35,648 bases of DNA from contig JAKAYT010000012.1 of assembly GCA_021826685.1 (NCBI GenBank), positions 1 to 35,648 on the forward strand, read 5' to 3'. A program made the translations under genes and the position numbers. The notes beneath the pieces were generated by a model. That model was not told where the DNA came from, made no database searches, and worked only from the letters and a program-made list of their open reading frames with translations. Shown here one piece after another: positions 20,841-24,481 of the stretch; within the stretch, counting starts at the first letter, position 1, and the number at the start of each line of letters is the position of its first letter. This DNA comes from Thermoplasmata archaeon. GTDB lineage: Archaea > Thermoplasmatota > Thermoplasmata > Lutacidiplasmatales > UBA184.

Positions 20841-21746
20841 GTGTACCTCGGAGCTCACCTTGGAATTGCCCAAGGCTTGGACGTCGCCGCTGCGGAAGCC
20901 GAGCGGATCGGCTGCGAATCGCTGCAGATCTTCGCCAAAAGTCCTCAGATGTGGAAGGGCCCGCCGATCTCGCTCGAGGCTGCCGCCGGGTTTCGCGCCG
21001 CGGTCGTGGCCCACCACCTGAGAGCGACCGCCGTGCATCACGGGTACCTTCTCAACCTCGCCCACCCCTCCGACGCGCGTCGCGCGCAATCCGAGCGGGC
21101 CTTCCGGGACGAGCTCGACCGGGCGGAGCTGCTCGGGGTGGACGCGCTGATCTTCCACCCCGGCGCGCATCTGGGCTCCGGCGTGGAAGCCGGGGTGGCT
21201 CGAATCGCGGACGCGTTGAACGCCGCGATCGCCGCCACGCCCACCTACCGAGTGCGCGCCCTGCTCGAGAATTCGGCAGGACAAGGCACCACGGTCGGCT
21301 CGAGATTCGAGGAGCTCGCGGAGGTTCTGGACCGCGTCTCGAGACCAGATCGGGTGGGCGTGACCCTCGACACCTGCCATCTCTTCGCCGCGGGGTTCGA
21401 CTTCCGCACACCGGAGGGGTACGGCGAGATGATGGACCACGTTCGAGGGACGATCCGCATCGAGCGCGTGCGCGCCTTTCACCTCAACGACTCGAAGTCC
21501 GATCTCGGTGCGCATCTCGATCGTCACGAGAACATCGGAGCCGGCAAGATCGGACGGGAGGCGTTCCGCGCTCTCATCAACGACCCGCGCTGGGCCGCCG
21601 TCCCGGGATTCCTCGAAACCCCGCTGGACGACGACGATTACGTCCGCTACGCGCGAGACCTGCAGACGCTCCGCTCGCTCCGGAGCCGGCCGCGGAAGAC
21701 GGCCGCGCGACGCTCTCGCCCTCGACGCGCCTCAACCATCAAATAG
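20841..21746 (+). CDS. nfo: Endonuclease IV (AP endonuclease)
   Basis: A 301-residue TIM-barrel DNA repair enzyme that cuts the backbone 5' to abasic sites using three zinc ions. It opens YLGAHLGIAQGLDVAAAEA, and the metal ligands of the family are in place: His in AVHHGYLLNLA, His in FHPGAH, Glu in LLENSAGQG, Asp and His in TLDTCHLFAAG, the FHLNDSKSDLGAHLDRHENIG cluster, and Glu in GFLETPLD. The core ends near residue 275, and a basic tail (RSRPRKTAARRSRPRR) follows, perhaps for DNA contact. GTG 20841 is the start; a weak TATA-like CCCTATCT lies about 26 bases upstream. Confidence 0.95.
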   Translation: MYLGAHLGIAQGLDVAAAEAERIGCESLQIFAKSPQMWKGPPISLEAAAGFRAAVVAHHLRATAVHHGYLLNLAHPSDARRAQSERAFRDELDRAELLGVDALIFHPGAHLGSGVEAGVARIADALNAAIAATPTYRVRALLENSAGQGTTVGSRFEELAEVLDRVSRPDRVGVTLDTCHLFAAGFDFRTPEGYGEMMDHVRGTIRIERVRAFHLNDSKSDLGAHLDRHENIGAGKIGREAFRALINDPRWAAVPGFLETPLDDDDYVRYARDLQTLRSLRSRPRKTAARRSRPRRASTIK

Positions 21747-21882
21747 ATCGCGACGCCATGCGAACGCGTCGATGGGCGTCTCGCCGATGGAGGGCACTTT
21801 CGCGGCCCATGCGACGGCCGCGAACGCCGGCGGGACCGAACGTGCGGCCTCGCCGTCGGAGGGGCGGGCCTAGGGGCGCGTC

Positions 21883-22845
21883 ATGACCGATATGGCTCCC
21901 GTGGCGAGGAAAGAGAGCCTGCGCGATGCATACGGCGAGACGCTCGTGAGCCTTGGGGAAGCGGATGCGAACCTTGTCGTGCTGGATGCGGGCCCCACGG
22001 GGTTCGTCTACTCGAGAGCGTTTGCCGCGCGATTTCCCGACCGAGCCGTCGTCGTCGACCCGACGGGTCCAACGATGATGGCGAGGGCCGCCGAACTTTC
22101 CCGTTCCACCCGCACCGTTTTCGCAAACACGTACGCCGCCCTTGCGGCCGGCCCCGCTTACGACCCGATCCGTCGATCGATATGCACGGCCCATGCGAAC
22201 GTGAAGATCGTTGCTACCCACGGCCCGACCCCCGTCGATGCGAACGGAGGAACCCCCTCCATGATGGAGGACCTCGGCCTCATGCGGGGCCTCCCCGGTA
22301 TGACGGTGATCGTGCCGGGGGACGCGCCCACCACGCGCTCCGCGGTCCGCGCGGTCGCAGGATTCCACGGGCCGGCCTATCTCCGCCTCGCGCGCGAGGA
22401 CCTTCCCACGGTCACCGACGGGACGTTCGTCATCGGCCGAGCGAATGAGCTCCGCGGCGGCTCGGACCTCACGATCATCGCGATCGGCACCCTACTGGCG
22501 CGCGCGCTGGCCGTCGCGGACGAGCTCGGGCGGGTGGGGATCTCGGCCCGCGTCCTCGACCTCGCTTCGGTCAAGCCGGTAGACATCGCCGGGCTCGTGC
22601 GAGCCGCGCGGGACACCGGCGCGATCCTAGTGCTCGAGGAGCACACAGTCGAAACGGGGATCGGAGCGCTCGTCGCCGCTACGACGAGCGAGAACTACCC
22701 GGTCCCGGTGCGCCGGGTAGGGGTCCCGGACGTCTTTGCCGAGAATGGCGAGACCGAGGCGATCCTCGACCACCTCGGACTGTCGACATCCCGCATCATG
22801 GACGAGGCGTGGGAGCTCCTCGAGCTACGGGGCAAGGTTCAGTAG
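21883..22845 (+). CDS. Transketolase C-half-like protein lacking the catalytic glutamate
   Basis: A 320-residue homologue of the separate C-terminal subunit of archaeal transketolase, with the pyrimidine-binding domain first and the C-terminal domain after about residue 190. The scaffold is well kept: [49 protein letters not shown] and [12 protein letters not shown]. Two functional motifs are lost. Where relatives have GVAEQNMIG, with the Glu that activates thiamine diphosphate, this protein reads DPTGPTMMA (Gly62 at the Glu position). The G-EDG-SHQ segment reads VDANGGTPS (118-126). No N-terminal subunit gene is nearby. It is followed by transaldolase after 26 bases. It may be inactive, regulatory, or a different enzyme. 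Confidence 0.85.
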
Positions 22846-22871: not shown

Positions 22872-23519
22872 ATGAAGCTGTTCCTCGACACCGCGAGCGT
22901 GAAAGAGATCCGCACGATGTGGGAGATCGGGATCCTGGACGGGGTCACGACGAACCCGACCCTCGTCGCGAAGGAAGGCCGCAAGTTCGAAGAGGTCCTC
23001 CGCGAGATCTGCGCGCTCGGCGTGCCGAGCGTCTCGGCAGAGGTCGTCGCGACCGACGTCGAAGGAATGCTCCGCGAGGGGCGGCACCTGCGCGGCCTAC
23101 ACCCTTCGATCTACGTCAAGGTCCCGATGACGCCCGCCGGGCTCCAGGCGACGAAGACCCTCGCGAGCGAAGGGACCCGGGTCAACATGACGCTCGTCTT
23201 CAGCGCCAACCAGGCTCTCCTCGCTGCCAAGGTCGGCGCCGCCTATGTGAGCCCGTTCATCGGACGCCTGGACGATCAGGGGGAGGTGGGCATGGAGCTC
23301 ATCCGGGACATCGTCGCGATCTACTCCAACTACCGCTTCTCGACCGAGATCCTCGTGGCCAGCGTGCGGCATCCGGTCCACGTGCTCGAGGCGGCAAAGC
23401 TCGGAGCCCACATCGCTACCATGCCCTACGCGGTGATGGAGAAGCTCGTCCAGCACCCGTTGACCGACCTCGGTCTCGCTCGGTTCCTGAAAGACTGGGA
23501 AAAGGTCCCGAGGGGCTGA
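22872..23519 (+). CDS. tal: Transaldolase (small, FSA-like subfamily)
   Basis: A 215-residue TIM-barrel enzyme of the non-oxidative pentose phosphate route that moves a dihydroxyacetone unit between sugar phosphates. It opens [13 protein letters not shown] and [13 protein letters not shown]; the Schiff-base lysine is Lys83 in YVKVP. Two positions separate transaldolase from fructose-6-phosphate aldolase: Glu57 in SAEVV (Gln in the aldolase) and Ser127-Pro-Phe129 in [10 protein letters not shown] (Ala-Pro-Tyr in the aldolase). Both are the transaldolase type. It probably shares a transcript with the transketolase-like gene 26 bases upstream. ATG 22872 begins the first strand of the barrel, as usual. 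Confidence 0.95.
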
Positions 23520-23565: not shown

Positions 23566-23850
23566 GTGAGCGACCCGGATCTGTTGGGCAAGTATCTGCG
23601 CGTGACCCGCGAGGCGCTCGCCCGCGTGGGACCCGCCCCTCCGTCGCGTTCGTTCCTCGCGACGGCGGCCGATGATGTCCTGCAGATGGCGCGCGCCTAC
23701 CTCGCCGACGCCGAGCACTTCGAGCGCTCGGGGGACCGGGAGCGTGCGCTCGCCGCCGTGAGCTACGCGCACGGATGGATCGACGCGGGGGTTCGGCTCG
23801 GCCTGCTGGACGGAGGCGACGATGACTCGAGGTTCACGCTCTACCGGTAG
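23566..23850 (+). CDS. DUF357 family protein
   Basis: A 94-residue, mostly helical archaeal protein. The segment MARAYLADAEHFERSGDRERALAAVSYAHGWIDAGVRLG has the D-A-x-x-F-x-x-x-G-D and Y-A-x-G-W-x-D-A-G pattern I associate with DUF357. Function is unknown. GTG 23566 is the start, with GGTTATCG about 30 bases upstream as a TATA-like box. Its 3' end overlaps the translin gene by 29 bases, and that gene overlaps the next by 4, so the three are translated from one message. Confidence 0.82.
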   Translation: MSDPDLLGKYLRVTREALARVGPAPPSRSFLATAADDVLQMARAYLADAEHFERSGDRERALAAVSYAHGWIDAGVRLGLLDGGDDDSRFTLYR

Positions 23851-24481
23851 GACCGGCTGGTCTCCCGGGATCCCGGAAGCCACCGTTCGCGCGATCGAGA
23901 CCCACCTCTCCGAACGCGAGGCGCGGCGGGAGCGGATCCACACCGACGCGCGCAACCTGCGCCGGGCCGCGCAGGGGGTGATGATCCTCTTGCACGAGGG
24001 AAAGCCGGCCGAAGGAGCCGCGCGGCGCCTCGGACGGGACCTGCGCGCGCTCGTCCGCGCGGCCCGGGCGGCGTGGGGCTCCGAGGCCGGGCTCGCCCGC
24101 GACGCAATCCAGGAAGCGGTGGAAGCACTCCTGCTCGTGGCCATCGATCGCGGCCGGCCGCTTCCGTCGCCCGCGGACATGGGGGTGGACCCCGAACCGT
24201 ACCTCCTCGGCCTCGGAGACGTCGTAGGGGAGGTCCGCCGGCGCGCGCTGCTGCAACTGGCTTCGGACGATCTCGAGTCGGCCGAGGCGTCGGTACGATT
24301 GATGGAACATCTGTACCAAACTCTAATGCGGTTCGACACCACGCGGGCGATCGTGCCGCTAAAGCCGAAGCAGGATACCGCCCGCTCGCTGCTCGAACGG
24401 ACCCGGGGCGAGGTCGTCCTCGCGCGAGTGCATGCCCGCTACCGCGGGGCATCGCTCCCCTCCGTTGCGGAGGAGCCGTGA
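23822..24481 (+). CDS. Archaeal translin-family protein
   Basis: A 219-residue all-helical protein of the translin/TRAX family, which in eukaryotes binds single-stranded RNA and DNA as a ring-shaped octamer and, with TRAX, acts as an RNase. The diagnostic end is present: RFDTTRAIVPLKPKQDTARSLLERTRGEV (about residues 173-201). The middle includes LGLGDVVGEVRRRALLQL, matching translin's central helices. Whether catalytic TRAX-type acidic residues are kept was not resolved. ATG 23822 lies inside the DUF357 gene; the first 15 residues look unconserved and a later start is possible. It overlaps the MTA phosphorylase start as GTGA. Its role in archaea is not established. Confidence 0.82.
   Translation: MTRGSRSTGRTGWSPGIPEATVRAIETHLSEREARRERIHTDARNLRRAAQGVMILLHEGKPAEGAARRLGRDLRALVRAARAAWGSEAGLARDAIQEAVEALLLVAIDRGRPLPSPADMGVDPEPYLLGLGDVVGEVRRRALLQLASDDLESAEASVRLMEHLYQTLMRFDTTRAIVPLKPKQDTARSLLERTRGEVVLARVHARYRGASLPSVAEEP

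Follow-up and report, generated by a model that had tools for sequence, protein, structure and literature searches.

An archaeal transketolase half without its catalytic residues

A gene for the C-terminal half of a transketolase lies beside a transaldolase gene in a 35,648-nucleotide stretch of DNA from a Thermoplasmata archaeon (the window). According to the original prediction, this gene is intact but has lost its active-site motifs and has no N-terminal subunit nearby, which raises the question of what the encoded protein is kept for. The features of the locus are:

20841 to 21746, + strand: nfo-like AP endonuclease (AP_endonuc_2), the conserved upstream neighbour
21747 to 21882, + strand: scar at the tktN slot, without residual similarity to tktN (about 0.8 kb in split-system relatives)
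21883 to 22845, + strand: orphan tktC, transketolase C-subunit homologue of 320 aa, predicted to be catalytically dead (open reading frame, Pfam and alignment to 6yaj)
21907 to 22425, + strand: PYR domain (residues 9-181) with a predicted intact fold; its active-site face is freed from selection
22057 to 22074, + strand: D-P-T-G-P-T (residues 59-64) where functional subunits have the catalytic-Glu motif, with Gly62 in the Glu column
22240 to 22260, + strand: A-N-G-G-T-P-S (residues 120-126) where functional subunits have the G-x-D-G-x-H-Q substrate loop; residues 116-122 are of low confidence in the model
22426 to 22842, + strand: transketolase C-terminal (TKC) domain, residues 182-320, the part conserved among orphans
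22872 to 23519, + strand: transaldolase (TAL_FSA), native archaeal copy, starting 26 bp downstream of tktC
23566 to 23850, + strand: DUF357 protein, conserved neighbour
23822 to 24481, + strand: translin-like protein, conserved neighbour

The tktC frame runs without frameshift from an ATG, and its junction with the transaldolase gene (tal) is as predicted. Pfam recognised Transket_pyr at residues 12-175 (E 3e-16) and Transketolase_C at residues 185-305 (E 7e-30) and no PP domain, which is the domain set of a split C-subunit. The best solved relative was 6yaj, the C chain of the Carboxydothermus split transketolase (E 6e-68). When aligned to this chain and to 29 intact members of the genus, D59-P-T-G62-P-T stood for G-I/V-x-E-x-x and A120-N-G-G-T-P-S for G-x-D-G-x-H-Q, so both replacements were as originally described and the protein has neither the catalytic Glu (Gly62) nor the substrate His/Gln (Pro125, Ser126). 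The fold had been called preserved, and an AlphaFold2 model (pLDDT 90.8, pTM 0.91, with low confidence right at the dead substrate loop) bore this out, its best PDB match being 6yaj (TM 0.86-0.93). That structure is an inactive TktC-only tetramer in which TktN is absent, and solved TktC alone in solution is likely a dimer (PMC7661550); by analogy, the window's TktC is probably a homodimer.

Transketolase activity is presumably supplied by a full-length enzyme

The window's genome (1.39 Mb, 60 contigs, ~90% complete) was searched for a TktN, and none was found; the sole Transketolase_N match in this ~90% complete assembly was a full-length transketolase on another contig, with the canonical motifs GVREHAM and THDSI..GEDGPTHQP. 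Incomplete assembly was rejected as the reason for the missing TktN, since nfo and tktC share a contig here with only a short scar separating them, as is also the case in relatives. To judge from its motifs, the full-length enzyme presumably supplies the transketolase activity of the cell. Although encoded in the same genome, it is only a distant homologue of the window's TktC, and the Pfam model that best fits its C domain (PF22613) differs from that of TktC.

The full-length gene stands at the head of a cassette (tkt - tal::pgi - HAD - 6PGD - G6PDH - 6PGL) that also encodes a transaldolase-glucose isomerase fusion, 6-phosphogluconate dehydrogenase, glucose-6-phosphate dehydrogenase and 6-phosphogluconolactonase. 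One archaeal locus (L214:6115-14794) holds the bacterial-type oxidative pentose-phosphate cassette in full, with tkt, a 918-aa tal::pgi, HAD, 6PGD, G6PDH and 6PGL; other species have a second cassette type, which matches the pgi part only. Among the matches listed from 283 genomes of the class, those of full-length grade (E < 1e-100) were confined to this family, a distribution that makes acquisition from bacteria likely. Contamination is an unlikely source of the full-length enzyme, as both genes lie on long contigs in two species (G018 and G025).

tktN was lost repeatedly and the active site of TktC eroded with it

We surveyed 78 species genomes of the genus, all of them assemblies and many incomplete. 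A relative of the window's TktC was present in 70 of the 78 (E < 1e-12) and a Transketolase_N domain in 72, and 75 TktC sequences, outgroups included, were aligned with their flanks. The gene order nfo-(tktN)-tktC-tal-DUF357-translin was maintained across the genus loci, and the genomes fell into four states. In the first, tktN-tktC is the only system, a complete full-length enzyme not being found (29 complete sequences). Both systems coexist in the second: TktC is intact in, for example, G032 and G096, the Glu is already gone from it in G008, G009, G020 and G089, and TktN is eroding in G094. The third consists of orphan tktC genes (30 complete sequences including the window's), in most of which the tktN slot is reduced to ~35-250 bp; the full-length enzyme accompanies 28 of the 30 and was not found in the other two, G075 and G081. 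An eroded TktN frame is still present in G026, which looks like a late stage of tktN loss. In the fourth state tktC has been deleted (G001, G002, G064 and apparently G031).

The catalytic Glu was present in 29 of 29 intact split-system TktC sequences versus 4 of 30 orphans (P=8e-13, without phylogenetic correction), and the Glu together with both His in 28 of 29 versus 1 of 30. The original prediction had reckoned with a local error should orthologues carry the normal Glu; split-system orthologues do carry it, yet it has truly been lost, and more than once, and a sequencing or assembly error was rejected because the Glu is also missing from the nearest species, G072, and from most other orphans. 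The idea that the D-P-T-G-P-T motif is itself conserved failed: a near-copy (DPTGPI) occurs in G072 only. Catalytic residues have eroded wherever tktN was lost, along a different path in each species; what is conserved in the protein is the C-terminal domain.

In a tree of the syntenic neighbour genes at this locus, tal included, species without tktN formed 11 clades among the split-system species (11-14 across 34 bootstrap trees), so that the excision of tktN from its slot behind nfo has taken place in no fewer than 11 separate clades. Of the split-system species, G071 is the nearest; it lies just outside the window's clade and has TktN together with a GVMEPTMM motif. tktC was retained in 10 of the 11 tktN-less clades and is gone in one. 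The reverse state, tktC deleted beside an intact tktN, was not found in any genome, G099 not being judgeable (no tktC found, tktN at a contig end). Were both genes equally dispensable, a 10:0 retention of tktC over tktN would have a probability of ~0.002 (two-sided sign test). If some species regained the split operon, the count of independent losses would shrink, but the conserved synteny makes this less likely.

Selection is retained on the protein and is strongest in the C-terminal domain

Mean identity among orphans was 34% in the PYR domain and 60% in the C domain, compared to 82% and 78%, respectively, among intact subunits and 61% and 45% in outgroups; orphans thus invert the customary order of the two domains. 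On the neighbour-gene tree, which served as the species tree, rates scaled to nfo gave an orphan/intact ratio of 14.0 (10.2-19.9) for PYR, 2.7 (2.0-3.7) for the C domain and 1.04 (0.76-1.43) for tal. Among columns that never vary in functional TktC, orphans retained 48% of those in PYR and 86% of those in the C domain. Losses concentrate at the catalytic motifs (L38, R43, G59, E62, F84, F87, D121, H125, Q126) and also at the C-domain loop FGESG. Pfam still recognised the C domain in 49 of 49 sequences and the PYR domain in 40 of 49.

In the window's genome and G072, the only close orphan pair, omega was 0.30 for PYR and 0.10 for the C domain (domains differ, P=0.009), and a neutral PYR domain was rejected (P=3e-5). 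Group omegas were 0.122 (PYR) and 0.079 (C) for orphans and 0.040 and 0.042 for intact subunits, values that are rough because most pairwise dS was saturated. No stop or frameshift was present in any of the 30 orphans despite their low mean PYR identity. A comparison of orphan with intact sequences for orphan-specific fixed or convergent residues hinting at a new function yielded nothing striking. Orphan tktC is under protein-level selection: dN/dS stays far below 1 in PYR and C domain alike and is lowest in the latter. The dN/dS check that had been proposed bears out the purifying selection foreseen for the gene, but this selection does not act on the dead active site, which is the fastest-evolving part.

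A binding or structural role is the most probable explanation for the orphan subunit

The window's tktC does not read as a pseudogene, and its product would no longer work as a transketolase. We put at roughly two in three the probability that it is a displaced half of a split transketolase, retained as a non-catalytic pseudoenzyme whose C-terminal domain would bind a partner or ligand. The job of the archaeal split enzyme (TktN and TktC) would have passed to the bacterial-type full-length transketolase, after which tktN was presumably deleted and TktC left to drift at its PYR active site, while the protein, its C-terminal domain above all, would have stayed under selection. Orphan TktC would then be a folded, non-catalytic protein, and because the catalytic face was released while fold and C domain were kept, a binding or scaffolding role appears likeliest. 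Of the new functions originally envisaged, a non-catalytic role is thus the best reading, and nothing points to other chemistry at the active site.

Since displacement happened separately in about ten lineages and the same domain was kept in each, we infer that this binding or structural function probably predates displacement. A broader proposal is tentative and falls a little short of an even chance: archaeal TktC would have in its C-terminal domain an ancient function that is independent of thiamine, can be separated from catalysis and was exposed by about ten displacements. Counting against a retained function in orphans, tktC was lost from the full-length-enzyme lineages G001, G002 and G064, apparently also G031, and alongside the full-length enzyme in sister genera (g24, most of g26, g27, part of g28), so any TktC function is conditional at best. 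Furthermore, the C domain too is somewhat relaxed in orphans, by the 2.7-fold noted above, which counts somewhat against a retained function, as does the lack of notable orphan-specific fixed substitutions. A literature search for a transketolase C-domain pseudoenzyme, or for a subunit retained after displacement, found nothing relevant among the accessible papers, and we know of no second role for the transketolase C-terminal domain.

The binding partner might be transaldolase, with the TktC C-terminal domain docking onto or stabilising Tal as a remainder of a former TktN/TktC/Tal complex. The adjacency of tktC and tal is conserved across the genus and outgroup genera, and the tktC-less species G001, G002 and G064 also have a broken tal. 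However, g24, g26, g27 and part of g28 have an intact tal without tktC, by which the partnership was rejected as a strict rule, and G079 has lost tal and kept tktC. Moreover, a broken or missing native transaldolase was seen only where the new cassette encodes a transaldolase domain of its own; tal loss may therefore follow the tal::pgi fusion, which explains its decay without invoking TktC. A read-through TktC-Tal chain gave no confident contact in AF2 (pTM 0.58, 14 sequences only). We regard this special form of the binding role as unlikely.

Several loci in related genomes bear on the fates of these two genes. In the tktC-less clade, native transaldolase is broken in three different ways (L215:6377-6826, L216:6008-6175 and L217:641-1280; internal deletion, 3' fragment only and frame breaks), all with the tal::pgi fusion, and in G079 (L134) tal is deleted beside a still-intact orphan tktC. 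A search with an orphan profile for an unrecognised, divergent tktC in the nfo-tal interval of g24, g26 and g27 found none, save a 46-residue remnant in G116. The nfo-tal space of tktC-less sister genera holds a conserved winged-helix-like plus coiled-coil frame (L277:457-1254, L280:576-1367, L284:322-1299 and L282:384-1439, L282 and L284 after reverse complement). Upstream of tal in genus g28, two species (G121, L272; G125, L264) have a more extreme orphan TktC, its first PYR half unrecognisable and its C domain kept. In genus g29 (G128, L237; G127, L238) both systems are present and the TktC motifs are starting to change; this genus is apparently at the start of the same displacement.

Orphan tktC could also be a slowly decaying relic, functionless and awaiting deletion, with merely residual constraint. 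PYR erosion is strong and progressive, the gene is lost in some lineages, and the remnant of ~46 codons in G116 is genuine. Against this stand the rejection of a neutral PYR domain and the C-domain omega of ~0.1 in the close pair, the open frames of all 30 orphans and the persistence of tktC in 10 clades that lost tktN. The marks of a pseudogene, dN/dS near 1, stops and frameshifts, were not what we found, and we rate this account as quite improbable.

A third possibility, another special form of the binding role, makes TktC a TKTL1-like modulator of the new full-length transketolase in mixed assemblies. The two co-occur in 28 of 30 orphan genomes and their folds are compatible, but they share only ~30% identity over a short stretch, the new enzyme is complete alone, and several genomes have it without TktC; such a pairing seems improbable. 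Slightly less credit still is due to translational coupling, by which the frame would stay open and foldable only since ribosomes reach tal through tktC. The 26-bp gap and fixed gene order fit, but G122-G124 have tal ~90 bp behind nfo without tktC, which makes coupling dispensable, and amino-acid selection differs by domain. Finally, a role as the beta subunit of some other thiamine enzyme, paired with another PP-domain protein, is barely conceivable: E1-type alpha and beta genes are present in the genome, but its own E1 beta adjoins E1 alpha, the pyrimidine-site motifs of TktC are lost, and its top family match is transketolase, not E1, with no linkage to E1 alpha.

Relation to known transketolase subunits and pseudoenzymes

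The non-catalytic pseudoenzyme favoured here shares domain order, fold and ~42% identity with ChTK-C of Carboxydothermus hydrogenoformans (6yaj/6yak) and archaeal TktC, and in archaeal split relatives, too, the gene adjoins transaldolase. It differs from both in having no catalytic Glu, ThDP-pyrimidine or sugar-phosphate motifs and no TktN in the genome. Human TKTL1 is a transketolase homologue for which a deletion-variant model was inactive and unable to bind ThDP (PMC3485151). Like TKTL1, orphan TktC is a transketolase homologue kept alongside an active transketolase; it has lost cofactor-site residues, its fold is predicted to be kept and its gene is under selection. In contrast, TKTL1 is a paralogue without a 38-residue stretch found in transketolase, whereas orphan TktC is the orthologous subunit left after displacement, its partner deleted and its PYR site eroded many separate times. 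Nor did it arise by duplication, since its locus is the functional tktC locus of relatives and the active enzyme is of another type.

Annotation would label such genes as transketolase, and pathway reconstruction would be misled. Altogether, the genus offers a repeated natural experiment, in which the enzymatic job of a subunit was lost in about ten lineages and its C-terminal domain kept every time, with intact, transitional, orphan and deleted stages all available within the system. This pattern points to a concrete second role for the C-terminal domain.
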